Assembly: GCF_000243075.1 (NCBI RefSeq)
Contig: NC_016745.1
Location: 1,443,001-1,507,000, forward strand
Length of the DNA stretch: 64,000 nt
DNA from: Oceanimonas sp. GK1
GTDB taxonomy: Bacteria; Pseudomonadota; Gammaproteobacteria; Enterobacterales; Aeromonadaceae
Direction of reading: 5' to 3'
The notes under the pieces were generated by a model. It was given only the letters and a program-made list of their open reading frames with translations, was not told the DNA's origin and made no database searches. Positions 28,451-43,628 of this stretch are shown here, one piece after another; within the stretch, counting starts at the first letter, position 1, and each line of letters starts with the position of its first letter. Position numbers and translations under genes: made by a program.

Positions 28451-28580
28451 ACGAAAAATCGTCTTTTTGAAACCTTGAGAACAAAAAATAACCGAAAGGG
28501 ATAAAAAGAGATATTTTCAGCTTGACGACCCGATTCGCCGGCCCTATTATCCGCCTCGCTTGAAGCAAAAGCCAAGCACC

Positions 28581-28657
28581 GGAGCGGTAGTTCAGTTGGT
28601 TAGAATACCGGCCTGTCACGCCGGGGGTCGCGGGTTCGAGTCCCGTCCGCTCCGCCA
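28581..28657 (+). tRNA. tRNA-Asp (GTC)
   Basis: The 77-base sequence has a 7-bp acceptor stem GGAGCGG/CCGCTCC, D-loop AGTTGGTTAGA, anticodon stem CCGGC/GCCGG with loop anticodon GTC (28615-28617), T-loop GGTTCGAGTCC and encoded CCA. It is nearly the same as E. coli tRNA-Asp. Its own terminator follows at 28663. The accessory catabolic cluster begins just beyond, a common insertion position for genomic islands. Confidence 0.98.
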
Positions 28658-28662
28658 AATTT

Positions 28663-28699
28663 AAAAATCCCTTAGCTAGTTGATAGCTAAGGGATTTTT
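28663..28699 (+). terminator. Terminator of tRNA-Asp
   Basis: A perfect 16-bp stem AAAAATCCCTTAGCTA/TAGCTAAGGGATTTTT with a 5-base loop and T-rich 3' arm, 6 bases after the tRNA. Confidence 0.95.
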
Positions 28700-29013
28700 G
28701 CTTTTCTGTCTTCAGTAAAATCACACACCTGCATTCTGTCAAATTCCCCCTCGTGACCACACCGTGACCATTTCGTGACCCGGACCCTGTTTTGACCGGT
28801 GTTCAAACCACACCACCTGCGCTGTCCATATGCTGATAAAGCTTCAGGTCGAAATACTGAGCCTGCTTTTTGAATTTGACTACAACGTACTTCTTAAATT
28901 CGTGGAGTCATGAGTTTTTCGTATTCCTCTGTGTGAAAGTGTCACTGGTGCTTTATCCGCTCTTTGGTTCTGATAACCCCTGGCTTGTTAGTTACAGGTA
29001 TGGAGAGGAATTA
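28700..29013. other. Intergenic region between tRNA-Asp and the lyase gene
   Basis: No gene is supported. Three CGTGACC words occur within about 30 bases at 28753-28780, a small direct-repeat cluster of unknown meaning. The region is the left junction of the lower-GC cluster and must hold the lyase promoter; no box pair of good quality was found. No second copy of the tRNA 3' end was seen to the right of the cluster. Confidence 0.4.
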
Positions 29014-30363
29014 ATGACAGCGAAGCAGCGGCAATACCGTATTGAAGAAGACTTGATAGGGGAGCTCGAAGTACCGGCACAGGCACTTTTCGGGGTGCAA
29101 ACGCAAAGGGCCATCAACTTGTATCCGCTGAATGGCGAAAAGCCCTTGTCGGCCTACCCGGAGCTGTTGCGCGGGCTGCTGCTGGTCAAAAAACTGGCGG
29201 CCCAGACCAATATCGATATTGGGGAAATTGAGCCCGAGATTGGCCAGGCCATCGTATCGGCAGTGGATCTGCTGCTTGAGGAGATGCCAGCCGAGGCGTT
29301 TCTGGTGCATGCCTTTCATGGTGGCGGAGGGATCTCCAGCAACATGAATGTTAATGAGGTGGTGGCCAATCTGGCCAACCGCAATGCCTTTGATCGCCCC
29401 CTGGGAAGCTACCACCCGGTGCATCCCAATGATCACGTCAACCTGAACAACTCGACCAGTGATGTGTTAAACACGGCCTGCCACTTAGCGGTGATCGACA
29501 GGATAAAGCAACTGGATAGCGAGCTGGCGGCACTGGTCGGCACCTTCAATGAGCAGGGGCAACGGTGGCAGCATGTGCTGAAGATTTCCCGAACCTGTCT
29601 GCAGGATGCGGTCGAAATCAGTTTTGCCGATCTGTTTTGGGGCTATTCATCACAGCTTGCACGCCACCGTCAACGACTGGATACAGACACCGGTGAGCTG
29701 TACCGGGTTAACCTGGGCGGCAATATTATCGGACGCAGAGGAGACTGCTCCGAGGCCTTCTTCAACAGAGTTATCGATGGGCTGAACCGGATGATGGGGG
29801 AAACAGGGTTTGTGCACAGCGACAACCTGTTTGATGCTTCTCAGAGTCATGATGATCTGGCCAGGGTGGCTGCCGGGCTGGACCAGCTGGCGAGGGCTCT
29901 GCTGCGCATTGCCAAGGATTTTCGCCTGATGGCCTCGGGCCCGGCAACGGGCTTGGGGGAAATTCGTCTTCCCGCGGTGCAACCCGGCTCCTCGGCCATG
30001 CCGGGCAAGGTCAACCCGACCATTCCGGAATACCTGATCCAGTGCTGTATGCAGGCCTGCGGGCGCTGTTACTCGGTGCAGATGACCCAGGATCATGGTG
30101 AGCTCGACTATACCCCCTGGCAGTCTGTGGTGATCAGCAATTTGCTCGACGCCATCTCGGTTTTGACCAGCGGCATGGAGGCCTTCCGGCAACATTGCCT
30201 TGCCGGTATGGAGCCGGATCTGGCGCGTAACGCCCATAACGTTAATACCTTGATTCCCACATTGATTCGGCTTAAGCAGCAATGCGGCTATTCGTTCGCT
30301 GCCCGTGTTTACAAGGAAAGCGGCGGTGACCTGGAGCAAATCCGGCGTTACCTGGAGGAATAA
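29014..30363 (+). CDS. Aspartase/fumarase-superfamily lyase, substrate unknown
   Basis: A 449-residue member of the aspartase/class II fumarase family, which removes ammonia, water or another leaving group from the beta position of a dicarboxylate. RIEEDLIGELEVPAQALFGVQT and GSSAMPGKVNPTIPE (325-339, the mobile Ser loop) define the family. The loop at 103-115 reads GGGGISSNMNVNE; aspartases have Thr where Ile107 lies, and STSD (147-150) replaces STND. It is also shorter than E. coli AspA (about 478 residues). So aspartase activity is doubtful and a different amino- or onium-substituted acid is possible. ATG 29014 follows GGAGAGGAA. It heads the catabolic cluster. Confidence 0.85.
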   Translation: MTAKQRQYRIEEDLIGELEVPAQALFGVQTQRAINLYPLNGEKPLSAYPELLRGLLLVKKLAAQTNIDIGEIEPEIGQAIVSAVDLLLEEMPAEAFLVHAFHGGGGISSNMNVNEVVANLANRNAFDRPLGSYHPVHPNDHVNLNNSTSDVLNTACHLAVIDRIKQLDSELAALVGTFNEQGQRWQHVLKISRTCLQDAVEISFADLFWGYSSQLARHRQRLDTDTGELYRVNLGGNIIGRRGDCSEAFFNRVIDGLNRMMGETGFVHSDNLFDASQSHDDLARVAAGLDQLARALLRIAKDFRLMASGPATGLGEIRLPAVQPGSSAMPGKVNPTIPEYLIQCCMQACGRCYSVQMTQDHGELDYTPWQSVVISNLLDAISVLTSGMEAFRQHCLAGMEPDLARNAHNVNTLIPTLIRLKQQCGYSFAARVYKESGGDLEQIRRYLEE

Positions 30364-30513
30364 GAACTTGGGAAGAAGGATGAGTTTTTTGCAGGGCGCC
30401 ATACCCTAATGTCAATTGTGCTCGAATAGCCATCCTTCTACTCTCGTTGAGAACCACTACAGCACTCGTCCTCACAGGATGTAAACTTCGTCGCAATAGA
30501 AATGGAGTATCAA

Positions 30514-32019
30514 ATGGATTCTGTAAAAAACATCCCCCTGTCCTGGGCCTACGATTGGCTTCAGCAACCCAAGCGGCAGTATATCGATGGCCAATGGGTA
30601 GACGGCGCCGGCCAGGACAAGTGGGTAGTGACCAACCCGGCTAACCGCGAAGCCCTGTGCGAGTTTGTAATGGCCGATGCGGAGCAGGTGGAATACGCTG
30701 CTCAAGTTGCCAACCAGCAACATGAATCCGGCGCCTGGTCCAAGGTCAGCCGCACTCAGCGGGCAGAGATGCTGCGCCAGGTTGCCCGTCTGATCCGCGA
30801 GCATACCGAAGAGCTGGCGGTGCTCGAATCCCTGCCCAATGGCAAGTTGTTTGCCGAGTCCATGGCCGATGATATTCCCACTTGCGCCGATATTTTTGAG
30901 TACTATGCTGGCTGGACCGATAAGTTCTATGGCGAAACGTCGCCGGTAGAAGACGGTTTTCTGAACTACACGCTCAAGGAGCCGATTGGTGTCTGCGCGC
31001 TGATCGCGCCCTGGAACTTTCCCCTGTACCAGACCAGCCTCAAGGTAGCGGCGGCACTGGCCATGGGCAATACCGTGATCATCAAACCGTCGGAATACAC
31101 GCCGCTGACCACCATCTACCTGATGGAGCTGATCGACCGTGAGCTCGAGTTTCCGAAGGGCGTGATCAACATGCTGTTGACCAACGGCGAGATGGCTAAC
31201 CAACTGACCCTGAGCAACAACGTACACAAGGTGTCCTTTACCGGCAGCACCGGGGTAGGGCGCAAAATAGTGCAAAACGCTGGCCTGTCCAACCTCAAGG
31301 CGGCCACCCTGGAGCTGGGCGGCAAGTCACCCTGCATCTTCTTTGAAGACACACCGGATCTGGACGGTGCCATCGATCGGGCCTTTACCGTGATGTTTTC
31401 GCACAAGGGTGAGAAGTGCTCGGAACCGACCCGCTTCCTGATCCACGACAGCATCTATGATCAGGTGCTCGAAAAGCTGATCGCCAAGGCCAATGCGGTG
31501 AAGTGCGGTAATCCGTTCGATGAAAATGTCGACCAGGGACCCCAGTGCAACGAGGCCCAGTTCAACAAGATCCTGGAGTACATTGAAATTGGCAAGGGCG
31601 AGGCCAAACTGGTGGCTGGCGGCTGTGCCGATACCGAGGGTGACAATGCCAACGGCTATTTCATTCGCCCCACCATCTTCTCCGAGGTGGACCTGAATGC
31701 CCGCATCGCCCAGGAAGAGATTTTTGGTCCCGTGCTGTGCTGCACTCGTTTCCACACCTCCGAAGAAGCCGTGCAAATGGCCAATGCCACTGCCTACGGC
31801 CTGGCGGCCGGCATTTATACCGCAGACGTATCCCGTGCCCATCGAGTAGCGGAACAAATCGACGCCGGCATGCTGTTTATCAACCGCTACGGTTGCTACG
31901 GCCTGGCCGCTCCCTTCGGCGGTTTCCGCCAGAGTGGCTGGGGAAAGGAGATGGCGATTCACTCCCTGTCTTCCTACACCAAGACCAAGGGTGTATGGGT
32001 GTATTACGGCGACGCCTGA
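30514..32019 (+). CDS. NAD(P)-dependent aldehyde dehydrogenase 1 (betaine-aldehyde type)
   Basis: Oxidises an aldehyde to a carboxylate. The 501-residue protein has the ALDH fold with PWNFPLYQ (Asn168), the glycine motif FTGSTGVGR (242-250), general base Glu268 in LELGGKSP and the thiol Cys302 in GEKCSEPTRF. Overall it resembles betaine-aldehyde/aminoaldehyde dehydrogenases, but the substrate is not determined. I prefer ATG 30514 because GGAG lies 7-10 bases before it; an ATG at 30502 lacks a ribosome-binding site. A 150-base gap separates it from the lyase. It is convergent with the IclR gene. Confidence 0.9.
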   Translation: MDSVKNIPLSWAYDWLQQPKRQYIDGQWVDGAGQDKWVVTNPANREALCEFVMADAEQVEYAAQVANQQHESGAWSKVSRTQRAEMLRQVARLIREHTEELAVLESLPNGKLFAESMADDIPTCADIFEYYAGWTDKFYGETSPVEDGFLNYTLKEPIGVCALIAPWNFPLYQTSLKVAAALAMGNTVIIKPSEYTPLTTIYLMELIDRELEFPKGVINMLLTNGEMANQLTLSNNVHKVSFTGSTGVGRKIVQNAGLSNLKAATLELGGKSPCIFFEDTPDLDGAIDRAFTVMFSHKGEKCSEPTRFLIHDSIYDQVLEKLIAKANAVKCGNPFDENVDQGPQCNEAQFNKILEYIEIGKGEAKLVAGGCADTEGDNANGYFIRPTIFSEVDLNARIAQEEIFGPVLCCTRFHTSEEAVQMANATAYGLAAGIYTADVSRAHRVAEQIDAGMLFINRYGCYGLAAPFGGFRQSGWGKEMAIHSLSSYTKTKGVWVYYGDA

Positions 32020-32060
32020 TAACCGCTTTTGCACATTCGACGGGCGAGTCCGTTTATTAA

Positions 32061-32088
32061 CAGTAGTCGGCCAGCAGGCCGACTACTG
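32061..32088. terminator. Perfect 12-bp hairpin between convergent genes (probable terminator)
   Basis: CAGTAGTCGGCC/GGCCGACTACTG with loop AGCA lies between the aldehyde dehydrogenase and the convergent iclR-type gene. No T-run follows on either strand, so termination efficiency is unclear. Confidence 0.55.
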
Positions 32089-32125
32089 CTTGCGTATGTC
32101 CGTTTTTCGCCCGTTCCGTCGTGTG

Positions 32126-32890
32126 TCAGACAAACCGCGATGACAACTGTCTTGCCGCCTGGATCAGGAACTTGGAATAATTCCTGGAATCCTGTGCACT
32201 GAGTGTCGCACCGTCGATACAGGCGCTGATGGCGGCAACCGGTTCATTTCTCAGATTCAGCACCGGCGCGGCAATACAGCTGAGATGGTGCTCTATTTCG
32301 CCCTGGCTGACCGCATAGCCAAGCCGGTGTGCCCGGGACAATTCTTCTTCCAGCACTGTCACTCTATCATCCGCCAACGGAGCCACTTTTTTCTCGCCTT
32401 CCATGTAGCTTTTCCTGAAGTTGGCCGACTGCATCGACAGAATGGCCTTGCCGGCGGCTGAGCGGTGCATTGGCATGGTCTGGCCGATAAAGAGGTTAAG
32501 TGACGTATTCAGCGATGGTTCCACCTTGGACACCACCACCACCTTGTTACCTACCGGTACGGCGAGGAAAATCAGCTTGTGGATCTCGTTCTTGAGAATT
32601 TCGGCAATCGGAAAGAAGTAGGGAATCAGGCTTTGTTTGTTGTACACGGTCGAGGCGATTTGAAAGATGCGTGAGCCGATGCAGTATGCTTTTTTGCGGC
32701 TTGGATCCATGGCAATCAATTGATGCCTGAGCAGGGTCTGAGCAATACGGTGGCCGCTGGCCACCGGAATTCCCGTCTGCTCGCAGATCTCCGTTAAGGT
32801 CAGCGGATAGGAGGCGGCGGCCAACAGATCCAGGATCAGTACGGAGGCGTCGACGGCCGGCGCCTTTGATTTTTCGACGTGTTCGTTCAC
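32126..32890 (-). CDS. IclR-family transcriptional regulator
   Basis: A 254-residue regulator with an N-terminal winged helix (~15-75, LTLTEICEQTGIPVASGHRIAQTL) and a C-terminal IclR effector domain (~85-250) with PMHRSAAGKAILS and GEIEHHLSCIAAPV. Such proteins bind a small acid and repress or activate a catabolic operon. The start is a GTG at 32890 preceded by AGAGAG; an alternative longer start (32959) would add 23 residues with no conservation. It is divergent from the AldA-like dehydrogenase operon. A palindrome at 32903-32916 overlaps its leader and recurs at 33144-33157, suggesting autoregulation and control of the operon. Confidence 0.9.
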   Translation of the reverse strand: MNEHVEKSKAPAVDASVLILDLLAAASYPLTLTEICEQTGIPVASGHRIAQTLLRHQLIAMDPSRKKAYCIGSRIFQIASTVYNKQSLIPYFFPIAEILKNEIHKLIFLAVPVGNKVVVVSKVEPSLNTSLNLFIGQTMPMHRSAAGKAILSMQSANFRKSYMEGEKKVAPLADDRVTVLEEELSRAHRLGYAVSQGEIEHHLSCIAAPVLNLRNEPVAAISACIDGATLSAQDSRNYSKFLIQAARQLSSRFV

Positions 32891-32902
32891 TGTTTCACTC
32901 TC

Positions 32903-32916
32903 TTCTATATATGGAA
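32903..32916. promoter_or_regulatory. Operator-like palindrome O1 (iclR side)
   Basis: TTCTATATATGGAA shares 12 of 14 bases with TTCCATATTTGGAA at 33144. It lies 13-26 bases before the iclR start codon. Likely IclR-type regulator binding site (inference). Confidence 0.5.
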
Positions 32917-33143
32917 AAAGTGGTGGGTTTCTCGCCGGGATGGCCAGCCAACTATCCACTTCCTTCTGTTAACCCAACAGAAAGAAAAAATATCAAATAC
33001 GTAACCTTTTGAAAAAGCAGGTAGTACCAAGCCTTGCGGTCTGACTGTCAGGTTTTTGGTGCGCTTTGCTTGTTCCTCGGCATCGCGCATGTCCTTGTTA
33101 TAAAAATACTTTTATTTCTAGCTGCAGACATTCATTAATATTC

Positions 33144-33157
33144 TTCCATATTTGGAA
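33144..33157. promoter_or_regulatory. Operator-like palindrome O2 (operon side)
   Basis: TTCCATATTTGGAA is a perfect TTCCA/TGGAA inverted repeat spaced by four bases, 26 bases upstream of the -35 box at 33183. Matches O1. Confidence 0.55.
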
Positions 33158-33161
33158 ATAA

Positions 33162-33178
33162 AATTCTATATAAGAATT
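33162..33178. promoter_or_regulatory. Palindrome O3 abutting the -35 box
   Basis: AATTCT-ATATA-AGAATT is a perfect 6-bp inverted repeat ending 4 bases before the -35 element; it partly resembles O1/O2 (TTCTATATA). Possible second operator. Confidence 0.45.
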
Positions 33179-33182
33179 AAAT

Positions 33183-33211
33183 TTGACAGCAGAAAGGCCT
33201 GTCCATAGGAT
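33183..33211 (+). promoter_or_regulatory. Sigma-70 promoter of the aldA-like operon
   Basis: TTGACA (33183-33188, perfect consensus) and TAGGAT (33206-33211) are 17 bases apart, 32 bases before the ATG at 33243. This is the best promoter match in the window, and the palindromes just upstream suggest regulated use. Confidence 0.75.
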
Positions 33212-33242
33212 TGTTACCAAATTTAACAATGGGCGTTTTTCC

Positions 33243-34667
33243 ATGAAAATGTATAACAATTTCATCCATAACGAATTTGTCGAAAGGGCAGAAGCCACGA
33301 AGATCCCGGTTTACAACCCGGCAACTGAAGAGATCATTGGGCAGGTCAGTGCCGCCAGTGCAGAAGATGCCAAGGAAGCGGTCGAGATTGCGGCGGCGGC
33401 CCAGAAGGGCTGGCGCAAGCTGACCAGCATTCAACGGGGAGATTACCTGCGCAGACTGGCTGATGCCCTGGTGGCCCGCAAGGATGATATCGGTCGGGCA
33501 CTGGCGCTGGAGTCCGGCAAGGCGCTGGATGAAGCAACCAGTGAAGCCGTGTATGCGGCGGATATCACCCGCTATCACGCCGAGTGGGCGCGCCGGATCG
33601 AAGGCGAGATTATTCCCAGTGACAGTCCGTCTGAAAACCTGTTGCTGCAGCGTGAGCCCATCGGTGTGGTGGCCTGCCTGATCCCGTTCAATTACCCGGT
33701 CTATACCCTGATGCGCAAGATTGCCCCGGCCTTGATCACCGGCAATACCGTGGTGGTGCGCCCGAGTAACAACACGCCCTGTTCGGCGTTTGAAATTGCC
33801 CGCGCGGTTCAGGAAGCCGGCTTGCCGCCCGGTGTGGTTAATGTGCTGGCGATGGATCACAGCACTGCCGAAATTGTCTGCACCCATCCCAGAGTTGGCA
33901 TGATCACCCTGACCGGCAGCGTGGGAGCGGGGCGCAAGGTGCTGGAATACTCTCAGGTCAATATCGCCAAGTCGTCACTGGAGTTGGGCGGTAAAACGCC
34001 GGCCATCGTCGAGGCCGATGCCGATCTGGAAAAGGCGGCCAGCCAGATTGTCGCCTCCAAAACTACCCACTGCGGACAACTTTGTACCGCGGTCGAGCGG
34101 GTCTATGTGCATGAGGCCGTCTATGACCGTTTCGTCGGCCTGCTGCGTGACCTATTCAAACAGCGCGAGTTTGGTGATCGTTCGAAGAGTCCGGGGGTTA
34201 TGGGGCCGCTTATTAACGAGAACACGCGCCTCGGTATTCATCAGATGGTACAGCGGGCCATCGACGACGGTGCCACGCTGGAAGTCGGCGGTTATATTCC
34301 AGAAGGAAAGGGTCATTTCTATCCGCCGACCCTGCTGACCAACTGCCGCCAGGATATGGAAATTGTTCAGGAAGAAATCTTCGGTCCTGTCTTGCCGGTG
34401 CTCAAGTATCGCGATGCCGAGGAAGCACTGATGCTGGCCAACGATCACCAGTTTGGTCTGGCTTCGGTGATCTACACCGAGAATTACCGTACGGCCATGA
34501 TGGTGGCCAACGAGATTGAGGCTGGCGAGATTTATATCAACCGCACACCGGCCGATCCCTATCAAGGCTACCACGCTGGCTGGAAGCGCTCGGGACTGGG
34601 GGGGGACGACGGCAAGCATGGCATGCTCGAGTTTACCCAGACCCGACTGGTCGTGCTCAGTTACTAA
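33243..34667 (+). CDS. AldA-like (lacta/glycolaldehyde-type) aldehyde dehydrogenase 2
   Basis: A 474-residue NAD-dependent aldehyde dehydrogenase. Asn150 (PFNYP), Glu248 (LELGGKTP) and Cys281 (CGQLCTAVERVYVH) are in place. RYHAEWARRIEGEIIPSDSPSENLLL and the C-terminal YHAGWKRSGLGGDDGKHGMLEFTQT closely parallel E. coli AldA, which oxidises L-lactaldehyde and glycolaldehyde. The substrate here may be a related hydroxy-aldehyde. ATG 33243 is chosen for conservation and its place after the promoter; its ribosome-binding site is weak. It heads the operon ALDH2, enolase-type, GMC, BCCT1. Confidence 0.9.
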   Translation: MKMYNNFIHNEFVERAEATKIPVYNPATEEIIGQVSAASAEDAKEAVEIAAAAQKGWRKLTSIQRGDYLRRLADALVARKDDIGRALALESGKALDEATSEAVYAADITRYHAEWARRIEGEIIPSDSPSENLLLQREPIGVVACLIPFNYPVYTLMRKIAPALITGNTVVVRPSNNTPCSAFEIARAVQEAGLPPGVVNVLAMDHSTAEIVCTHPRVGMITLTGSVGAGRKVLEYSQVNIAKSSLELGGKTPAIVEADADLEKAASQIVASKTTHCGQLCTAVERVYVHEAVYDRFVGLLRDLFKQREFGDRSKSPGVMGPLINENTRLGIHQMVQRAIDDGATLEVGGYIPEGKGHFYPPTLLTNCRQDMEIVQEEIFGPVLPVLKYRDAEEALMLANDHQFGLASVIYTENYRTAMMVANEIEAGEIYINRTPADPYQGYHAGWKRSGLGGDDGKHGMLEFTQTRLVVLSY

Positions 34668-34732
34668 GCCCCTGCAATGGGCTCCGTACATTCCGTTGTC
34701 GATGAGCCCTCGACGATTTACGAGGTATTCAG

Positions 34733-35974
34733 ATGAAAGTAGCTTCCTGTCAGACTCATGTTGTTGCCGTACCGCCCCCTCATGTGGGGGGCATGTACTG
34801 GATTTTTGTGACCCTGCGGACCGAATGCGGCATTGAAGGGGTGGGAGAGGTCTATGCGTCCACCTTTCACCCCAGGGTTATGGTCCCGGCCATCGAGGAC
34901 GTATTTGATAGATATCTAAAGGGAGAAGACCCTCATCATATCGAGCGCTTCTTCCGGCAGGCTTACTCGAGCGGCTTTACCCAACGGCCCGATCTGACCA
35001 TGATGGGCATTATCAGCGGTCTGGAGATGGCCTGCTGGGACATCATCGGCAAGGCGGCGGGCAAACCGGTGTATGAGCTGATCGGAGGGCGGGTACACGA
35101 CAAGCTGCGCTCCTATACCTACCTGTACCCGGTCAACCGAGCCGGCGAGTATGACTACGACAACGTTGAACTGGCGGTCGAGTGCGCCCTGGAAAACATG
35201 GAAAAGGGCTTTACTGCACTGAAGTTCGATCCTGCCGGTCCCTATACCGCTTATTCCGGGCATCAACTGGCGCTGGAAGATATCGACAAGAGCGCGACCT
35301 TCTGCCGCCGTATTCGCGAGGCGGTAGGTAATAAGTGTGACCTGCTGTTTGGAACGCATGGCCAGATGGTACCGTCAGCCGCCATCCGACTGGCCAAGCG
35401 GCTCGAGCCCTATGATCCGCTCTGGTTCGAAGAGCCGGTCCCTCCGGGGCAGGCCGAAGCCATGGGAAGGGTTGCGGCAAACACCTCGATTCCGGTGGCG
35501 GCAGGAGAACGGTTGACTACCAAGTACGAGTTCCATGATCTGCTGACCCACAAGGCGGCGTCGATCCTGCAGATGAACCTGGGCCGTGTTGGCGGCATTC
35601 TGGAAGCGAAGAAAATCGCCGGCATGGCCGAGGCTTTCTATGCCCAGATAGCCCCGCACTTGTACAACGGCCCCGTGGGTGCCGCCGCCAGCATTCAACT
35701 GGCCACCGCAACACCGAACTTCCTGATCCAGGAAAGTATTCGCACCTGGGACGGATTCCATGCCGAGGTGCTGCAGGAGAAGATCGAGTGGCGTGATGGC
35801 TACATCATTCCCTCGACCAAGCCAGGGCTGGGCGTGGAGCTGAACATGGAAGTGGTCAAGGCCCATTCACCCTACAGCGGCAAACGCCTACACCTGCTGA
35901 TGGATCCCAAACCTTATGATTACAAGGCGCGCAGCGATGACTGGAAGCGCCAGCCGGATACGGTGGAGAAATGA
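34733..35974 (+). CDS. Enolase-superfamily (mandelate racemase/dehydratase-like) enzyme
   Basis: A 413-residue protein with the capping domain (1-125) and a TIM barrel. Known members abstract a proton alpha to a carboxylate and either dehydrate acid sugars or racemise/cycloisomerise. Visible elements: KFD at 164-166, GTHGQ at 207-211, WFEEP with Glu233/234, GER with Glu259, MNLGRVGG at 281-288 and PHLYNGP with His309. The position of the first Mg2+ ligand (usually Asp in DxN or DxH) reads Gly207, and the Asp usually paired with the barrel His is Asn282, so chemistry may differ. It overlaps the GMC gene by ATGA. Confidence 0.85.
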   Translation: MKVASCQTHVVAVPPPHVGGMYWIFVTLRTECGIEGVGEVYASTFHPRVMVPAIEDVFDRYLKGEDPHHIERFFRQAYSSGFTQRPDLTMMGIISGLEMACWDIIGKAAGKPVYELIGGRVHDKLRSYTYLYPVNRAGEYDYDNVELAVECALENMEKGFTALKFDPAGPYTAYSGHQLALEDIDKSATFCRRIREAVGNKCDLLFGTHGQMVPSAAIRLAKRLEPYDPLWFEEPVPPGQAEAMGRVAANTSIPVAAGERLTTKYEFHDLLTHKAASILQMNLGRVGGILEAKKIAGMAEAFYAQIAPHLYNGPVGAAASIQLATATPNFLIQESIRTWDGFHAEVLQEKIEWRDGYIIPSTKPGLGVELNMEVVKAHSPYSGKRLHLLMDPKPYDYKARSDDWKRQPDTVEK

Positions 35975-37620
35975 GCATGGAATTCGATTTTATCATTGTC
36001 GGGGCTGGTTCGGCGGGCTGTATTCTGGCCAGTCGCCTGAGCGAGTCGGGGCGGCATTCGGTGCTGCTGCTGGAAGCTGGTGAAAAGGACAGCTCGCCCT
36101 GGTTCAAACTGCCGGTCGGATTTGCCAAGACCTATTACAACCCCCGCTACAACTACATGTATTACAGCGAGGAAGAAGCAGGTATGGCGGGGCGAAAAGT
36201 ATACGCTCCCCGGGGCAAGGTGCAGGGCGGCTCCGGCTCCATCAATGCAATGATCTATGTGCGCGGCCAGGCGTCGGACTTCGACGATTGGGCGGCGGCC
36301 GGCAACGAGGGCTGGAGCTATCGGGAGGTGTTGCCCTATTTCAAGAAGTTGGAGCAACATCCGGCTGGCGACAACGAGTTCCATGCTTCTAGTGGTCCCA
36401 TTGGCATAACACCGATGAAAGGACGAGCTCATCCCATCTGCGATTATTATCTGCGGGCGGCTGAACAGCTTGGCTGGCCTCTTAATGACGACTTTAACGG
36501 CGCCGGGGTGGAGGGTGCCGGTATCTACGAAACGAATATTCGCAATGGTCAGCGTGACTCCAGCAATACCGCCTACCTGAAGCCGGCGTTGAGCCGGCCT
36601 AATCTCAGCTTACAGCGGGTAAGCATGGTACAGCGGGTATTGGTTGACGAACAGCAACAGGCTACAGGGGTTGAGGTGCTGTACCAAGGGCGCCTGCAGC
36701 AATATCGGGCCCGGCGGGAGGTGATCCTGTCGGCCGGCGCCGTGGATTCTCCCAAGCTGCTGCAATTGTCCGGTATCGGTGATCGGGCAACGCTGACCTG
36801 CCATGGTATTGAAGTCCGGTGCCATCTGCCGGCGGTAGGTGAGAACCTGCAGGATCACCTCTGTGTCAGCTATTACTACCGGGCCAATATGAAAACTCTG
36901 AACGATACCTTCCGTTCGTTCTGGGGTAAGGCCTGGTCCGGACTCGAATACCTGATCAACCGCTCGGGGCCGCTGTCGATGAGCGTCAACCAGGCCGGGG
37001 GGTTTTTCCGGGGTAGCGACACCGAGCAGGCCCCCAATATTCAGCTTTACTTCAACCCCATGTCCTACCAGATACCGAAGGACTCCAATGCTAGGCTGGA
37101 GCCGGAACCTTATTCAGGCTTTCTGGTGGCCTTCAATGCCTGCCGCCCGACCAGCAAAGGGCGCATTGAACTTGCATCGAGTAACCCGCAGCACGCGGCG
37201 TTAATCAAACCCAATTACCTATCGACCGACAAGGATATCAATGAGGTCATTCAGGGGAGTCGTTTGATACGGGCCCTGATGCAGGCGCCCGCACTGCGGG
37301 AGATCACCGCCGAAGAAGTATTGCCCGGAAAAGCAGTCGAGAGTGAGGAGGAAATGCTGACGTACTTTCGCGAGAACGCGGGCTCCATTTATCACCTGTG
37401 CGGCTCTTGTGCCATGGGACCGGACCCCCGGACCGCGGTTGTTGACAGCCGCTTGCGGGTGCACGGGCTCAACGGGCTCAGGGTTATCGATGCCTCGATT
37501 TTCCCCAGTATCACTTCTGGCAATACCAATGCCGCCACCATGATGGTGGCGGAAAAAGGCGCCGACATGGTGCTTGCCGATCATGCCGACTCGGCAGGTC
37601 GCGGTCATGTCGACAGCTAA
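35971..37620 (+). CDS. GMC-family FAD oxidoreductase (choline-dehydrogenase-like)
   Basis: A 549-residue flavoprotein that probably oxidises an alcohol to an aldehyde and passes electrons to quinone or another acceptor. The N terminus has [18 protein letters not shown] (FAD motif GxGxxG), then [18 protein letters not shown] (GMC signature 1), [17 protein letters not shown] (signature 2), and the C-terminal catalytic region [10 protein letters not shown] and [18 protein letters not shown]. It resembles BetA/AlkJ/DddA-type dehydrogenases, without enough to choose. The first ATG (35971) overlaps the upstream stop; a second is two codons in (35977). The next gene, BCCT1, starts 21 bases downstream. 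Confidence 0.92.
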
Positions 37621-37641
37621 TTAAAAGATGGATAATGGATT

Positions 37642-39213
37642 ATGACAAACGCGAAAAGAATCAAACCGCTGGTGTTTTGGCCCCCGTTCCTGCTGTTGAT
37701 GGCCGCGGTGGCCATGAGCTTTGCCGATTTGGAGGCATTCCTCGGTGTTACCTCAGCCATCAACAGCTGGATCCTGAATCACTTTTCTTGGTTGTTCAGT
37801 CTGGGTACTCTGCTTATGGTCGCCACTTGTATCTGGGTGTTTTTTTCACCCTTGGGCAAAGTGCGTATTGGCGGTGAAGATGCCACCCCGCTGATCAGCC
37901 GATGGCGCTGGTTCTCCATCGCCCTCTGTACCACAGTAGCGATCGGCATTTTGTTCTGGGCCACGGCCGAGCCCATGTATCATCTGCACAGTCCGCCCGC
38001 ATCGTTAGGTCTTGAGCCCGGCTCGGCCGATGCAGCCCAGTTCGCCATTTCGACCATGTTTTTACACTGGTCTTTTACGCCTTATGCCATCTATACGGTG
38101 CCGGCACTGATGTTTGCACTGGCGCACTATAACCTGGGTAAGCCATTTTCACTTGGATCCGCACTGAGCCCGTTGTTCGGTGACCGCATGTTAGGAAAAC
38201 CGGGACACCTGATTGATGCGCTGGCGCTCTATGCCCTGGTGGCCGGCATGTCGGCGTCACTCGGTACCGGCGTACTGACCCTGGCCGGCGGCTTGGACAA
38301 TATGCTGTCGATCGGCACCGGCCCCGTGGTACTGGGCGCGATCACCCTGTTGATCGTGGTCAGCTTTATCCTGTCTGCGGCCAGTGGCCTGAAGAAAGGG
38401 ATAGCCATGCTCTCGAGTCTCAATACCCGGATCTTTTTCCTGATTTGCGGTTTTGTGTTCGTGTGTGGCCCGACCACCTGGATACTGTCTATCGGGGTCG
38501 AGGGACTGGGAGTGTATCTCGGTAACTTCATCGAAAAGAGCCTGTTTACCGGTGCGGCTTCGGGTGATCAGTGGCCGCAGTGGTGGACCATTTTCTACTG
38601 GGCCAACTGGCTGGCCTGGGCGCCGATCACAGCCCTGTTTCTGGGCAAAATATCCCGGGGATATACGGTTCGCGAGTTTCTGGTGATTAACATGATGTTA
38701 CCGGCCCTGTTTGCCTGTGTCTGGATGTCGATTTTCAGTGGTACCGCACTGAGTATGGACATGAACGGCGATGGTTTACTCAACAAGGCCCTGCAGGCTA
38801 CCGGTGCTGAGTCTGTGGTCTATACCATGCTGGATAACCTGCCACTGGCGGGCATTACTGCGGGGGTGTTTATTTTTGTGTCCTTCCTATCCTATGTAAC
38901 GGCGGCGGACTCTAACACCGAAGCAATGAGTAATCTGTGCTGCGAAGACAGTGAAGCCAGTCTGTCCGGTGACACCCAGGCCCATGGCGCCAGCCTGAAG
39001 CTGAAACTGATATGGGGCGGCACCATCGGCTTTGTAGCCTGGGTTATGACCAGTTTTGCTGGGGTCGATGGTATCAAGATGATGTCGAACCTGGGCGGTC
39101 TACCCGCATTGCTGATTGTACTGGGGTGTAACGCCGCCCTGATCCATTGTCTGCTGTCGAGACGCTTCCAGAGCCGGGAGCTTGCCTGGCTGGGGGATGT
39201 CAGGGCTGCCTGA
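37642..39213 (+). CDS. BCCT-family transporter 1
   Basis: A 523-residue, 12-helix secondary transporter of the betaine/choline/carnitine family. Family hallmarks are present but altered: the TM3 glycine motif of Na+-coupled betaine carriers (GMGIG) reads VAIGI before LFWATAEP; TM4 has HWSFTPYAIY, so of the BetP cage Trp189/Trp194/Tyr197 it keeps Trp, Tyr, Tyr; TM8 reads YWANWLAWAP, where the first Trp of WWxxW is Asn. A quaternary ammonium or sulfonium substrate other than glycine betaine is therefore likely. It is the last gene of the ALDH2 operon and is followed by the terminator at 39232. Confidence 0.92.
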   Translation: MTNAKRIKPLVFWPPFLLLMAAVAMSFADLEAFLGVTSAINSWILNHFSWLFSLGTLLMVATCIWVFFSPLGKVRIGGEDATPLISRWRWFSIALCTTVAIGILFWATAEPMYHLHSPPASLGLEPGSADAAQFAISTMFLHWSFTPYAIYTVPALMFALAHYNLGKPFSLGSALSPLFGDRMLGKPGHLIDALALYALVAGMSASLGTGVLTLAGGLDNMLSIGTGPVVLGAITLLIVVSFILSAASGLKKGIAMLSSLNTRIFFLICGFVFVCGPTTWILSIGVEGLGVYLGNFIEKSLFTGAASGDQWPQWWTIFYWANWLAWAPITALFLGKISRGYTVREFLVINMMLPALFACVWMSIFSGTALSMDMNGDGLLNKALQATGAESVVYTMLDNLPLAGITAGVFIFVSFLSYVTAADSNTEAMSNLCCEDSEASLSGDTQAHGASLKLKLIWGGTIGFVAWVMTSFAGVDGIKMMSNLGGLPALLIVLGCNAALIHCLLSRRFQSRELAWLGDVRAA

Positions 39214-39231
39214 TCACTGACTTGCTACACC

Positions 39232-39268
39232 GCCCGTACCGCGCGAATGCCGGTGCGGGCTTTTTATT
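39232..39268 (+). terminator. Terminator after BCCT transporter 1
   Basis: Stem GCCCGTACCG/CGGTGCGGGC (one G-T pair) with a 9-base loop and a TTTTTATTT tail, 19 bases past the stop. Confidence 0.85.
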
Positions 39269-39452
39269 TCTAGCGCGTTCATTGTTAATAACTCCTCGAA
39301 AAAAGATGTTGATTTTGTGTTATGACTTTTTTTCATGGTTGAGCGAATTTATGTCATTTTGAAAATTTTCTGTGCTGCAGCATTCTTGCCAGTGATGAGG
39401 ACATCTGAAGGAACATTCGCCACACCGGCGGAGTAATTATGTAGGGATTAAT

Positions 39453-41054
39453 ATGCAAAACATCAGACCTATTACATTCTGGCCGGCATTTGCCTGTCTT
39501 GCCCTGACGGTCATCTATACCATCATTGACAAGCAAAACTTCATTGCCGGTACCTCGACACTTAACAATGTGATCATGGCCAACCTCTCGTGGCTGTTCA
39601 ACCTCAGCGCCTTGCTAATGGTGTTTATCGCTGCTTATGCATTTATATCACCTATCGGCCGGGTACGCATCGGTGGTGAAAAAGCGACACCCATGCTTAC
39701 CCCGTTCCGCTGGTTTGCGGTTTCCTTAACCACCGTGATTGCCATGGGGATCTTGTTCTGGTCGGTGGCTGAGCCTGTGCTGCACTACCATGAACCACCG
39801 AAGTATCTGGGCGTGACTCCCGAGAGTGCCGAGTCGATGCGCTTTGCCATGTCTACCATCTTCGTACACTGGACTATTACGCCATATAGCATCTATACCG
39901 TTGCAGGTTTGGCATTTGCGCTGGCGTTCCACAACCTCAAGCTTCCCTTTTCTATCGGCTCCATGCTGCGCCCGTTACTGGGACGCTGGGTTGATGGTAT
40001 CGGTGGCCAGATCATCGATGGTTTGGCACTTTTCTCCGTGGTATTGGGCATGTCGGCCACTTTGACATCGGGACTTTTGGTAATTGGCGATGGGATGGAG
40101 TCGGTACTGGGCATTGAGAAAAGTGTTACCGGCTACGCGATTATTGCGATTGCCATTATTGGCTCTGCCATTATATCGGCCGCATCTGGTCTGTATCGTG
40201 GTATTCAGACTCTGGCACGTATTAACACCTGGCTCTATTTCGTCGGTGCTCTGTTTATCTTCATCGTGGGGCCTACCGCCTTCATCCTGTCACTGGGGGT
40301 CGAGTCACTAGGTGTTTATCTGTCAGATTTCTTTGCCCGTAACTTGGTGACCGGCGCTTCTGGTAATGACCAATGGCCGGGCTGGTGGACCGTTGCTTTC
40401 TTTGCCAGCTGGTTTGCCTGGGCCCCGCTTAGTTGTTTGTTCCTTGGCAAGATCGCCCGTGGCTACACAGTGCGTCAATTCATCATCGTCAACCTGTTGC
40501 TGCCTTCGTTGTTTGGTTTCCTGTGGTTCAGCATCTTCAGCGGATCTTCACTGTTTTTTGATACTAGCCTCGGCGGCATCATGTACCAGGCCTATCAGGA
40601 GCATGGTTTTGCCTCGGTCATTTATGTGCTGTTCGAGCAGTTGCCCGGTAGCACCCTGCTCAGTGCGCTGTTTATCTTCGCCTGTTTTATCACCTTTATT
40701 ACTGCAGCTGACTCCAATACCGATGCTATCGGTGGCCTTTGTATCAAGGGTGTGGATGCCGAAAACCTGAAATCCCCCTTGTGGGTTAAGGCTACCTGGG
40801 GTTGTGCCATTGCTTTCGTTGCTTGGATCAGCGCGAGCTATATCGGTGTCGATGCTATCAAGATGCTGTTTAACCTGTCTGGTGTGCCGGGCATGCTGAT
40901 TGTGCTGGGAGCAGGGTTTGCCTTTCTGAGACTGGCGCAACGAGTGCAGGTTAATGGCCAAATCGTCGAACTGAAGCCGACTGTGCTGGCTCAGATGGAA
41001 GCTAACTCTGAATCCGGACGTACAGTACTGCTGGCAGGACTGGGACAGAAATAA
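39453..41054 (+). CDS. BCCT-family transporter 2
   Basis: A 533-residue paralogue of the transporter encoded just upstream, sharing its special features: IAMGILFWSVAEP in TM3, HWTITPYSIY in TM4 and FFASWFAWAP in TM8 (Ser where BetP has the first Trp). The 239-base gap upstream, after the terminator, indicates its own promoter, so it can be expressed separately. It is followed by the aldo/keto reductase, with which it probably forms a two-gene operon. Both transporters likely carry related compounds, perhaps with different affinity. Confidence 0.92.
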   Translation: MQNIRPITFWPAFACLALTVIYTIIDKQNFIAGTSTLNNVIMANLSWLFNLSALLMVFIAAYAFISPIGRVRIGGEKATPMLTPFRWFAVSLTTVIAMGILFWSVAEPVLHYHEPPKYLGVTPESAESMRFAMSTIFVHWTITPYSIYTVAGLAFALAFHNLKLPFSIGSMLRPLLGRWVDGIGGQIIDGLALFSVVLGMSATLTSGLLVIGDGMESVLGIEKSVTGYAIIAIAIIGSAIISAASGLYRGIQTLARINTWLYFVGALFIFIVGPTAFILSLGVESLGVYLSDFFARNLVTGASGNDQWPGWWTVAFFASWFAWAPLSCLFLGKIARGYTVRQFIIVNLLLPSLFGFLWFSIFSGSSLFFDTSLGGIMYQAYQEHGFASVIYVLFEQLPGSTLLSALFIFACFITFITAADSNTDAIGGLCIKGVDAENLKSPLWVKATWGCAIAFVAWISASYIGVDAIKMLFNLSGVPGMLIVLGAGFAFLRLAQRVQVNGQIVELKPTVLAQMEANSESGRTVLLAGLGQK

Positions 41055-41121
41055 ACTATTCGACTTTGTAACAAATGGAGTCGAATAGGTTCGGCTCCGT
41101 CATTACCTTTGAGGATTTAAC

Positions 41122-42141
41122 ATGCAATACGTAAGACTCGGCCAGTCCGGCTTGAAAGTATCCCGTCTCTGCCTCGGCACCATGAACATGGGCTCTAAGC
41201 AATGGAAACCCTGGATCTTTGATGAAAAGGAGAGCGAGCCGATTATCGCGCACGCACTTAACATGGGCGTTAACTTTATCGATCTGGCAGATTTTTACTC
41301 TACCGGTGCGGGTGAAGAAGTGGTGTGCAATGTGTTGCGTCGTATTGCCCGTCGTGACGAGCTGGTTATCACCACCAAGGTAGGCTATGCCATGAGTGAT
41401 GACATCAATGCTCAGGGCCACTCGCGCAAACATATCTTCGATGCCATCGACGCCTCACTGAAGCGCATGGGAATGGATTATGTCGATATCTACATGCTGC
41501 ATTATTTCGATACCGAAACCCCGGTGGAAGAAACCATGGGCGCCCTGAACGATATCGTGCTGGCCGGCAAGGCCCGCTATATCGGTGTGTCTACCATGTA
41601 CACTTGGCAACTGGCGAAAATCCTGCAGGTATGTGACAAGAATGGCTGGGCCCGCCCAATCAACATGCAGCTTCAACTGAATTGCGCCTATCGTGAAGAA
41701 GAGCGGGAGATGATCCCCTTCTGTATGGATCAGGGCATTGGGGTGTCGGTATTCAGTCCGCTGGCTCGGGGTATTTTGACCAGTGATCTGCAGTCTACCC
41801 GCAACCAGACCGACTTTTTTACCGCCGAGATGTACAACGATCAGGCCTCCAAGGATATTGCCCATTCTGTCGCTAAAGTGGCGGCTGCGCGCGGCTGCCT
41901 GCCTGCACAGATAGCACAGGCATGGGTGTTGCAAAAGCCGGAAGTGTCCTCAATGCTGGTAGGAGCCGACAGCCCGGCCCAGTTTGACAGCGCGCTAGCG
42001 GCACTCGAAATGACTCTGAGCGCAGAAGAGCTTTACGAGATTGAACGCAACTACACTCCGTGCGACTTGATCAACGATTACACTGCCGGCAAACGGATTG
42101 CGCGAAGCCCACGTCCAGCTCGGGCCCCCTTTATTGACTGA
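41122..42141 (+). CDS. Aldo/keto reductase
   Basis: A 339-residue NADPH-type oxidoreductase. The catalytic tetrad is visible: Asp54 and Tyr59 in FIDLADFYS, Lys86 in ITTKVG and His127 in IYMLHYFD. The N terminus RLGQSGLKVSRLCLGTMNMGS and the length place it with the YajO/general-stress-protein-like AKRs, whose substrates vary. AKRs also run in the oxidative direction, so it may handle an alcohol or aldehyde of the cluster's pathway. GAGGA precedes the ATG. It sits 67 bases after BCCT2 and ends at the terminator at 42190. Confidence 0.9.
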   Translation: MQYVRLGQSGLKVSRLCLGTMNMGSKQWKPWIFDEKESEPIIAHALNMGVNFIDLADFYSTGAGEEVVCNVLRRIARRDELVITTKVGYAMSDDINAQGHSRKHIFDAIDASLKRMGMDYVDIYMLHYFDTETPVEETMGALNDIVLAGKARYIGVSTMYTWQLAKILQVCDKNGWARPINMQLQLNCAYREEEREMIPFCMDQGIGVSVFSPLARGILTSDLQSTRNQTDFFTAEMYNDQASKDIAHSVAKVAAARGCLPAQIAQAWVLQKPEVSSMLVGADSPAQFDSALAALEMTLSAEELYEIERNYTPCDLINDYTAGKRIARSPRPARAPFID

Positions 42142-42189
42142 TCGCCCTCAAGTGTTTCCGTGGTACGTTGTTTTGCTTTAGGTCTTTTT

Positions 42190-42211
42190 GCCCCGCTTGC
42201 GGGGCTTTTTT
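42190..42211 (+). terminator. Terminator after the aldo/keto reductase
   Basis: Stem GCCCCG/CGGGGC with loop CTTG, followed by TTTTTT, 48 bases past the stop. Confidence 0.9.
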
Positions 42212-42256
42212 GTGGTTCAAATTGATGGAGTTGGTGTCTCTTACCCTTGGGGTTGT

Positions 42257-43129
42257 TTAGCCCGGGCTGATCTCTCGTAGCCACTCGGTAAAGCGGATCA
42301 CCTTGGCCAGCCCCTGACGTTCTGCGTTGATATCAAGCCAGTATCCATATGGGCCGCTGACTTCTATGTCGCTGAAGGGCACCAGGGCACCTGATTGCAG
42401 TTCACGACTGATCATGTGTTTGTCGATAATGGCAAAACCAGCACCGTTAATGGCGGCATTGGTCACCTGATCCAGGGTGCTGAATTCCATGCCGCGATTG
42501 GCATCAACCTGATCGGTGAGGCCGGCGGCCTGTAGCCAGTTTTGCCACACCGGCAGCCGTTCGCCTTTATGCAAGATGTGAAGCAGGCTGCCATCGGTCT
42601 GGTCTAGATGACGTGCCCGGTTAACCAGCTCCGGTGCACAGACGGCCACATGTTGCTCCAGCATGATCAGTTCACTGTAATGGCTCGGCCTGGCGGTGCG
42701 GCCAAAACGAATACAGCAATCGAACAGTTTGTGGTCGCTGTCGCTGTTGTGAATGGACAGCTCAAGCTCGGGAGAATGCCGGTGCAGACTGGCCAGGCGG
42801 GGGGCCAGCCAGCGAGTGGCAAAAGTGGGAGGTACCAGTAGTGTTAATCGTTGTCGTTGTTTAGGATCCCGTAGCTCTTGGACTGCGCTTTCCATCAGGT
42901 TGAAAGACTGCTCTAGTTTGGCAAGCAGTTGCTTGCCAGACTCGGTCAGTTCCAAGTGATGATGGCGGCGAATAAACAGCGCCACACCCAGGTAGTCTTC
43001 CAGTTGCTTGATCTGCCGGCTGACCGCACTCTGAGTGACATGCAACTGGGCTGCTGCCTGAGTGAAGCTCAGGCACTTGCCCGTGGTTTCGAAAACGCGT
43101 AACGAAGTCAGTGCCGGTAACGAACGCAT
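42257..43129 (-). CDS. LysR-family transcriptional regulator (GcvA/BetI-cluster type)
   Basis: A 290-residue LTTR: winged helix at 1-65 (LTSLRVFETTGKCLSFTQAAAQLHVTQSAVSRQIKQLE) and a periplasmic-binding-protein-like effector domain (~90-290). The opening MRSLPALTSLRVFE resembles the GcvA-like group. It is convergent with the aldo/keto reductase. LysR genes normally face the operon they control; here the divergent side (43130-43628) contains only an apparently decayed region, so its target may be the cluster to its left or may have been lost. Confidence 0.9.
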   Translation of the reverse strand: MRSLPALTSLRVFETTGKCLSFTQAAAQLHVTQSAVSRQIKQLEDYLGVALFIRRHHHLELTESGKQLLAKLEQSFNLMESAVQELRDPKQRQRLTLLVPPTFATRWLAPRLASLHRHSPELELSIHNSDSDHKLFDCCIRFGRTARPSHYSELIMLEQHVAVCAPELVNRARHLDQTDGSLLHILHKGERLPVWQNWLQAAGLTDQVDANRGMEFSTLDQVTNAAINGAGFAIIDKHMISRELQSGALVPFSDIEVSGPYGYWLDINAERQGLAKVIRFTEWLREISPG

Positions 43130-43628
43130 AAGATTGCCTATGGATGAAGCTTACGGGGAAGGAGGGATGCTAACTGTAACAAACGACGAGATTCTTATTC
43201 AAACTTATTACTCCTCCTGGAGCTACCGGTATGGACGCATGCAACTACAGACACATCCTGGTCACTGCGGATGATCGTAAACGAGGCTGCGGAGCGGTTT
43301 GAGTACGATAGCCCCTGGCGCAATATCAAGGCGCTGCCCATGCCGTGCGCCGAGGAGCAGCCTTTTAGTCTGAAAGTTTCGTGAACGCAGTTCAGCTTAT
43401 TGTCCGTTGGCTCGTCATTACGAAGCCAGCGGATCTATGCCGAAAGATTGCGCCTATCCAATACCCTTTTTGAAACATGGCCGTTTATCGTTTTTGGCGG
43501 CGACTTCAACATATTGGTCCACAAGATCTTCTTGGTACCCACCGGCTCTGTATTTGGCATTTTCAAAAGCAGATGGACCTTACACATCGTTCTGCGACGG
43601 GATTTGCGGCAAACCGTGGGAGGAGTGG
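43130..43628. other. Gene-free region with possible gene remnants
   Basis: No intact gene is supported. On the plus strand 43231-43302 gives a 23-codon frame beginning MDACNYRHILVTADD, loosely like the start of a universal stress protein, and 43271-43384 gives a 37-codon frame in another phase. On the minus strand 43454-43579 is open and gives a plausible, charged peptide (AFENAKYRAGGYQEDLVDQY and on) with no ATG. These look like scraps of decayed genes at the right edge of the low-GC cluster. None is called as a gene. Confidence 0.35.

Follow-up and report, generated by a model that had tools for sequence, protein, structure and literature searches.

A nested two-module gene cluster in Oceanimonas sp. 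GK1, a candidate for the catabolism of a hydroxylated onium compound

Background

The ten-gene cluster described here lies in a 64,000-nucleotide stretch of the Oceanimonas sp. GK1 genome (NC_016745.1, positions 1,443,001 to 1,507,000; in the following the window, to which all positions refer), and its closest described counterparts are the choline-to-betaine route and the clusters for dimethylsulfoniopropionate (DMSP) catabolism. With the choline route BetT-BetA-BetB it has in common a BCCT importer, a GMC alcohol dehydrogenase and an aldehyde dehydrogenase (ALDH) resembling betaine-aldehyde dehydrogenase (BADH), but its proteins score below the BetA, BetB and BetT cut-offs, and an enolase-superfamily enzyme (ENO), an aldo-keto reductase (AKR), a lyase and an AldA-like second ALDH are additional. 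The DMSP (Ddd) clusters presumably also share BCCT, GMC and ALDH enzymes with it, and in some relatives the modules of the cluster adjoin DddP, DddP-like or DddD-like genes; however, neither a Ddd lyase nor a CoA-transferase is among the ten window genes, and we know of no counterpart in Ddd clusters for ENO or for a lyase of the dicarboxylate type. The catabolic patchwork pathway for tris(hydroxymethyl)aminomethane employs, like the cluster, an importer and alcohol and aldehyde dehydrogenases on an amino-polyol; to our knowledge it comprises no ENO, AKR or aspartase-like lyase. On the level of single enzymes, the lyase resembles aspartase (AspB/AspA) and class II fumarase in fold, catalytic Ser loop and alpha-carboxylate pocket, but departs from them in three replaced positions (N142, H188 and T101), in a GELDYxPW-like stretch of its own and in scores below the family cut-offs. 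ENO shares 37% identity with E. coli DgoD of the enolase superfamily and retains both His (H209, H309) and two Glu, which we take to be the catalytic pair and metal ligands, respectively; the first metal-ligand Asp of DgoD is however Gly, and Asp166 is invariant instead.

Diacylglyceryl-N,N,N-trimethylhomoserine (DGTS) is a betaine lipid common in algae and fungi. Being free of phosphorus, it replaces phospholipids in phosphorus-starved Phaeobacter (excerpt of PMC10132767). We propose, with a probability of about one in three, that one part of the cluster, module A, would cleave glyceryl-trimethylhomoserine, the deacylated DGTS, into pyruvate and homoserine betaine, and that the other, module B, would convert homoserine betaine into fumarate and trimethylamine. 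If true, the route from the DGTS head group to pyruvate, fumarate and trimethylamine would link phosphorus-free lipids to methylamine cycling; even with another onium substrate, the lyase is a candidate for a new trimethylamine- or sulfide-releasing enzyme. The first-pass annotation of the window had recognised no known pathway with all of these genes, and this holds for the open-licence literature, in which no described pathway with the gene set was found, although this is not proof of novelty. The same literature gave no matching pathway for betaine-lipid catabolism, gonyol, an aspartase-type trimethylamine lyase or a set of Fae and AKR, and no paper on the bacterial use of the DGTS head group.

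Results

Judged from its predicted fold and its aligned residues, the lyase is a member of the aspartase/fumarase superfamily. The AlphaFold model, which has a mean pLDDT of 73.9 and poor active-site loops and was used for the fold only, matches AspB with bound L-aspartate (3r6v_D; Foldseek E 4.4e-24, TM 0.81), and the closest solved relatives are aspartases, fumarases and a Brucella 'fumarate lyase'. All 14 NCBIfam matches were below the curated cut-offs: the score for aspartate ammonia-lyase was 324.7 bits (aspA, cut-off 681.2), for the broader PRK12273 subfamily 398.4 (cut-off 510) and for class II fumarase 332.9 (fumC_II, cut-off 664.75). In aspartase the alpha-carboxylate pocket is made up of Thr187, Met321, Lys324 and Asn326; contacts to the amine come also from Asn142 and His188, and the catalytic residue is Ser318 (excerpt of PMC11744663). 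Orthologs of the window lyase were aligned in 17 rows, representing nine distinct sequences after tblastn matches of less than 350 columns had been dropped. T187, K324, N326, S318 and S319 were invariant in all 17 and position 321 was M or I, while N142 was replaced by S or A and H188 by C. The 40 comparison rows (38 proteins, with two rows for either of E. coli AspA and FumC) kept T187, K324, N326, S318, S319, M321, N142 and T101 and had H (33), Q (6) or C (1) at position 188; the sole row with C188, from locus L087, retains T101 and N142. The orthologs carry E, Y and W at three positions of the GELDYxPW-like stretch, absent from the comparison rows, and the combination of Asn142 with His or Gln at position 188 that marks an aspartase was found in none of their 17 rows (9 distinct). 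Because the amine contacts are replaced while the alpha-carboxylate pocket and the catalytic serines are kept, the pattern suggests as substrate a dicarboxylate with a leaving group other than ammonia, i.e., a 2-onium succinate such as aspartate betaine, which would be split into fumarate and trimethylamine. The kept pocket speaks for a dicarboxylate and not for a DMSP-like monocarboxylate, and the engineering of an aspartase for acrylate, for which the pocket was replaced (excerpt of PMC11744663), needed the opposite change, which argues in the same direction.

ALDH2 passes the cut-off of NF007497 (PRK10090, 'aldehyde dehydrogenase'; 532.9 versus 500), and its solved chains at E 1e-110 are all AldA or lactaldehyde dehydrogenases, which fits an alpha-hydroxy aldehyde as substrate. 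ENO scored 252.4 bits as D-galactonate dehydratase (NCBIfam cut-off 311) and lacks the Asp183-type ligand; together with the AldA-like ALDH2 it points to a chemistry of 2,3-substituted glycerates. ALDH1 has BADH as its best NCBIfam model (477.1 bits, below the cut-off of 668.6) and, by phmmer, mitochondrial ALDH and then betaine-aldehyde dehydrogenase as best solved chains. GMC is choline-dehydrogenase-like at a score below the BetA cut-off (474.2 versus 732.1), with a chloramphenicol-inactivating oxidoreductase as best solved chain, followed by choline dehydrogenase; the best solved chain for AKR is an aryl-alcohol-dehydrogenase-like oxidoreductase.

The ENO family is widespread, with relatives in 211/295 Salipiger-family genomes, nearly all of the listed ones being 51-62% identical, yet the nearest solved chains (4e4u first) are only generally named, the five nearest as mandelate racemase/MLE proteins. 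In 12 Salipiger-family stretches, inspected mostly by eye and without L176 and part of L175, ENO sits with a zinc alcohol dehydrogenase (family checked in L174) or with a GMC protein (by eye), and some GMC stretches add an ALDH, a beta-hydroxyacid dehydrogenase, a class II aldolase (checked in L173 and L181) or a dioxygenase (checked in L181). With neighbours as varied as these, the wider ENO family need not share one substrate. Five loci of the Salipiger family (L174, L178, L179, L182, L184) have a distant ENO (52-54%) near lyase and alpha-beta-hydrolase genes resembling, by eye, an aromatic (pca) set, with a zinc alcohol dehydrogenase in most (checked in L174). L173, L180 and L181 combine ENO (58-60%) and GMC with nearby beta-hydroxyacid-dehydrogenase genes, with class II aldolases in L173 and L181, and L181 also has a TmpA/butyrobetaine-dioxygenase-like gene near ENO and GMC.

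The ten genes had been described as one self-contained set. The set stands, but not its self-containment: two modules are separable by loss, as seen from relatives holding module B without module A and from a remnant of the IclR gene. Module A is formed by IclR and the divergent genes ALDH2-ENO-GMC-BCCT1, module B by lyase-ALDH1-BCCT2-AKR-LysR, and in the window A is nested inside B. Genes of relatives were called with a simple codon-usage script, so that starts and small genes are approximate, and neighbours outside the Pfam and NCBIfam runs were named by eye. Both modules are also found together in Salipiger and Marinobacterium. In relatives, module A consists of ALDH2-ENO-GMC with an IclR or LysR regulator and usually an importer between ALDH2 and ENO, which is the MFS protein MFS2 in 67/80 loci; IclR adjoins the ENO module in Halomonas, Salipiger, Marinobacterium and Chromobacterium. 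Module B is contiguous in Marinobacterium profundum (L127; 74, 85, 86, 91 and 80% identity to the window genes) and in the genus relative G295 (L137). In both, BCCT2 adjoins AKR with no BCCT1 ortholog beside it. ALDH1 accompanies the lyase in Salipiger, Marinobacterium and the Salipiger-family genome G589, and LysR accompanies AKR in Marinobacterium (80%) and Pseudomonas (about 53%).

Module B occurs without module A in two genomes of the same genus as the window. In one of them, G295, the window stretches 28464-32197 and 39288-43150 match L137 sequences only 41 bases apart (blastn), and L137 retains a scar that resembles window 32039-32197 at 67% over 172 bases (E 4e-18), a stretch in which the IclR gene ends. 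From this scar of the IclR 3' end we read that module A was lost as a unit in G295; a recent insertion of A into B, read at first from the collinear flanks, was dropped for the same reason. In the L127 gap only one match stood out, itself weak: 51 bases like the window sequence that precedes BCCT2; no IclR scar was found there. Among 61 genomes of the own genus, family and order, the lyase occurred in 6 (E 1e-100, own genome included) and ENO in 4 (E 1e-120), and all 4 ENO-bearing genomes had the lyase. Zobellella maritima (L001) has an ENO 98% identical to that of the window. In Salipiger marinus (L006) both modules adjoin each other, with no BCCT gene in the stretch; Marinobacterium has both on different contigs, and G589 has module B genes and, elsewhere in the genome, two more distant ENOs (60 and 54%). 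Few genomes have an ortholog of the lyase: 2/295 of the Salipiger family at E 1e-95, Salipiger itself included, and among the matches listed for the 274 class genomes none but that of the own genome exceeded 39% identity. The modules have different flanks in L128, L135 and L138. In L128 of Z. maritima the lyase stands behind genes resembling, by eye, an inositol-type ABC importer and Gfo/Idh oxidoreductases and not in a tRNA-Asp flank; L138 (4429-11561) has two AKR copies, each 97% identical to that of the window, beside BCCT genes, and the place that module A takes in the window is occupied there by a DddP-like gene.

AKR connects the two modules. The joint occurrence exceeds chance because, at the thresholds chosen, GMC was present in 77 and ALDH2 in 73 of the 80 loci retained after the ENO search, and because AKR orthologs of at least 70% identity were present in 10/20 ENO-bearing genomes (chosen from the loci) versus 1/274 class genomes at E 1e-100, this one being the own genome. 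Without Z. maritima and the own genome the ratio is 9/19 to 0/273 (Fisher p 2e-12, a value that overstates the effect, as the samples were not matched for phylogeny). In several genera AKR orthologs of 70-79% identity lie beside or near the ENO module. Fourteen of the 80 ENO loci have AKR, two with lyase and ALDH1 (L001, L006) and 12 with an ALDH of the succinate-semialdehyde dehydrogenase (SSADH) type. A Fae-like gene is found in 9 of these 12; the other three (L023, L025, L030) begin inside AKR, and in a wider stretch of the L025 genome (L204) Fae adjoins AKR. The partner of AKR was lyase with ALDH1 or Fae in 10/10 AKR-bearing chosen genomes, and those with no lyase beside AKR had Fae next to it in 7/7 and the SSADH-type ALDH in 6/7. 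In Pseudomonas/Burkholderia relatives with AKR a Fae-like protein and an SSADH-type ALDH replace lyase and ALDH1. Fae and lyase occurred together in 0/80 loci, whole genomes not being searched for both. Two Fae-like proteins tested passed the TIGR03126 cut-off (136 and 137 versus 118) and one ALDH tested from a Fae locus that of the SSADH subfamily (716.7 versus 646), which may be taken as a hint to a C4 compound. The Fae-like gene adjoins AKR, usually with the SSADH-type ALDH and often with an MFS gene, in L029 (15873-20346), L203, L204, L205, L206 and L207; hosts of this arrangement are Pseudomonas/Burkholderia relatives and one Neisseriaceae genome. A beta-hydroxyacid-dehydrogenase gene and another ALDH, which may replace AKR, are nearby in Halomonas (L003, L008) and Thioglobus (L077); the best models for the dehydrogenases of L003 and L077 are 2-hydroxy-3-oxopropionate reductase and 3-hydroxyisobutyrate dehydrogenase, all below cut-off.

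Both transporters are BCCT proteins (PF02028, 445 and 391 bits). With residue roles for the trimethylamine transporter TmaT from an excerpt of PMC11708041, BCCT1 and BCCT2 keep Trp146, Tyr154 and Trp326 and have Tyr for Trp151, a site-I box W-Y-Y-W; the equivalent of the second-site Trp325 is lost to Asn in BCCT1 and to Ser in BCCT2. In Paraburkholderia/Burkholderia (L041, L048, L063, L067) an ABC importer stands between module A and the Fae-AKR-SSADH genes; its binding protein matches OpuAC of the glycine-betaine type (Pfam run on L041) and has a relative in 7/80 loci. Next to module A, BCCT genes and a DddD-like gene (by eye; NCBIfam gave general CoA-transferase models only) are found in Marinobacterium, and in Halomonas L003 a TmpA/gamma-butyrobetaine-dioxygenase-like gene, whose 354 bits fall short of the cut-off of 400. 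The cluster had been read as catabolic genes, not characterised before, for the breakdown of a hydroxylated onium compound. This view gains from the mostly kept cation box of the BCCTs, the changed amine contacts of the lyase and the BADH-like ALDH1, and further from the glycine-betaine-type importer or DMSP-catabolism genes beside the set in relatives. It had also been noted that no DMSP lyase, carnitine or choline-betaine set is complete; indeed none of the ten genes passes the cut-offs of such families, and these pathways as a whole were discarded for lack of a diagnostic enzyme among the ten.

Discussion

In the proposed scheme, BCCT1 would import glyceryl-N,N,N-trimethylhomoserine, the deacylated head of DGTS, GMC would oxidise its free CH2OH group to the aldehyde, and ALDH2 would convert this aldehyde into a 3-O-alkyl-glycerate (3-alkoxy-2-hydroxypropanoate). 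ENO would take the alpha proton and expel the alkoxide, as a sugar-acid dehydratase expels hydroxide, leaving pyruvate and homoserine betaine. Homoserine betaine, which BCCT2 may also import, would be oxidised by AKR to aspartate-semialdehyde betaine and by ALDH1 to aspartate betaine, from which the lyase would eliminate trimethylamine to yield fumarate. In the relatives with Fae, the elimination of trimethylamine may precede the oxidation, i.e., occur one step earlier from the semialdehyde, and the SSADH-type ALDH would take fumaric semialdehyde to fumarate; this order would explain an ALDH of the SSADH type rather than the BADH type. The scheme gives each of the eight non-regulatory genes a step, a fit that makes a hypothesis and not a proof, and other onium alcohols are possible. 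We infer all substrates and reactions, including the ether cleavage and the role of Fae, from gene content, modularity, co-occurrence and residue patterns, and the scheme for module B is better supported than that for module A. That the cluster would be the first catabolic route for a betaine-lipid head group, with ether cleavage to pyruvate by ENO, trimethylamine release by the lyase and Fae in place of the lyase in soil relatives, we consider rather unlikely in this full form.

Several observations weigh against the DGTS reading. DGTS, or any other named compound, is assigned to the cluster by inference, a lipase is not among the ten genes, and we know of no precedent for the expulsion of an ether by an enolase-superfamily enzyme. 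A search of the own genome for DUF1989, which we take to be a domain of the trimethylamine N-oxide demethylase, was negative, other trimethylamine-oxidation genes not being searched. Thr101, presumably a substrate contact in aspartase, is also changed in the lyase orthologs, to Ile. The DgoD metal ligand Asp183 corresponds to Gly207 in ENO and is Gly in 126/126 ENO rows (86, 23 and 17 in three identity bands, about 112 distinct; matches of less than 300 columns and rows at 100% identity were dropped, and the 18th row of the lowest band is DgoD itself), with Asp166 invariant; Asp166 may take over the metal binding. ENO occurs without AKR in 10/20 chosen genomes, of which some are small, probably incomplete bins, and the class sample contains 12 genomes with ENO (E 1e-120), of which only the own has AKR; in 10 of the 12 the ENO has an identity of at most 64%. 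The DGTS reading leaves unexplained the DddP gene, over cut-off, in the lyase cluster of G589 (L136) and likewise the DddP-like gene in that of the relative G296 (L138), which scored 536 versus 600 bits for a gene call without start that begins at profile position 74.

Module B may act as proposed, from a C4 onium alcohol over a 2-onium succinate to fumarate and an amine, while module A, with ENO as an ordinary sugar-acid dehydratase, acts on a different onium polyol or polyhydroxy acid by expelling water, both sharing regulation or habitat rather than a carbon chain. A DgoD-like ENO with both His kept, the ENO genomes without AKR and the two relatives with B alone would suit such a division of substrates, which we hold for conceivable but doubtful: A has B or the Fae-AKR module as its neighbour in Salipiger, in relatives from Pseudomonas/Burkholderia and in the genus of the window, and the ten genes include neither a keto-deoxy-acid kinase nor an aldolase. 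We think it unlikely that two unrelated accessory modules were merely gathered in one low-GC island with no common pathway: the low GC and the separate modules with different flanks in L128, L135 and L138 are consistent with it, but AKR pairs with ENO in several genera (14/80 loci) and, with the reservation on phylogeny made above, is enriched in ENO genomes outside the own genus. Several leaving groups are presumably used in the aspartase superfamily, and both BCCTs are without the Trp325 equivalent; the lyase could thus act on a non-onium 2-substituted succinate in a sugar-acid or mixed-acid route with BCCTs for a non-onium substrate, but the cation box mostly kept in both BCCTs, the OpuAC-type importer of relatives and the BADH-like ALDH1 render this quite improbable. 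Least convincing is a lyase that splits a monocarboxylate (beta-alanine betaine or DMSP) to acrylate, with AKR and ALDH1 (and GMC/ALDH2) carrying 3-hydroxypropionate via malonate semialdehyde as in DMSP clusters, since the DddP, DddP-like and DddD-like neighbours in L136, L138 and Marinobacterium and the GMC and ALDH enzymes presumed for DMSP clusters are opposed by the T187/K324/N326 pocket kept in all orthologs found and replaced in the acrylate-engineered aspartase (excerpt of PMC11744663), by the lack of an acrylate hydratase among the ten genes, by an ALDH1 score of 232 bits with methylmalonate-semialdehyde dehydrogenase (cut-off 448), a model not in the best 25 of ALDH2, and by an ENO left without a role.

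Genomic setting

A check of the open reading frames found all ten genes in the order and on the strands first given, and the families named then agree with Pfam and NCBIfam (Lyase_1, Aldedh, IclR, Aldedh, MR_MLE, GMC, BCCT, BCCT, Aldo_ket_red, LysR; Table 1). The start of the lyase gene was revised: it had been set at TTG 28870, but is probably ATG 29014, because GGAGAGGA stands upstream of this ATG and the lyases of relatives begin there.

Table 1 Genes of the cluster and extent of the stretch missing in a relative (proposed functions are predictions)
Feature	Position	Strand	Basis
Aspartase/fumarase-fold lyase, module B; proposed 2-trimethylammonio-succinate lyase (fumarate + trimethylamine)	29014..30363	+	PF00206
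ALDH1, module B; proposed onium-semialdehyde dehydrogenase	30502..32019	+	best NCBIfam model BADH, below cut-off
IclR-type regulator, module A, divergent from ALDH2	32126..32959	-	PF01614/PF09339
ALDH2, module A; proposed glyceraldehyde-ether dehydrogenase	33243..34667	+	NF007497 over cut-off
ENO, enolase-superfamily dehydratase-like enzyme, module A	34733..35974	+	PF13378/PF02746
GMC oxidoreductase, module A; proposed primary-alcohol dehydrogenase	35971..37620	+	PF00732/PF05199
BCCT1 importer, module A	37642..39213	+	PF02028
BCCT2 importer, module B	39453..41054	+	PF02028
AKR, module B; proposed alcohol-to-semialdehyde step	41122..42141	+	PF00248
LysR-type regulator, module B	42257..43129	-	PF00126/PF03466
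Module A stretch missing in relative G295 (locus L137)	32198..39287		blastn blocks

The host genome has 3.5 Mb and belongs to the GTDB genus that includes Z. maritima. The low GC content reported for the cluster was borne out, with values of 0.51-0.59 across 28001-44000 in 1-kb intervals; outside the cluster the GC content is mostly 0.60-0.69, with few other low intervals, e.g., 19001-20000 and 51001-52000. The tRNA-Asp gene is likewise present upstream of the cluster (28581-28657). An exact search of the window with its last 18 bases matched the tRNA gene alone, and no direct repeats of at least 18 bases framing the cluster were found. Among seven loci of relatives scanned, just L137 has a tRNA gene; near module B of L138, however, 82 bases are 80% similar to window 28626-28707, in which the 3' end of the tRNA lies. 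About 12 kb downstream of the cluster the window contains a third BCCT gene (55211-56845; 459 versus the bcct subfamily cut-off of 408). Further genes are those for arsenosugar biosynthesis at 46624-48874 (ArsS radical SAM protein and two arsenosugar glycosyltransferases, all over cut-offs) and an S-methyl-5-thioribose kinase, over cut-off, at 49122-50330.

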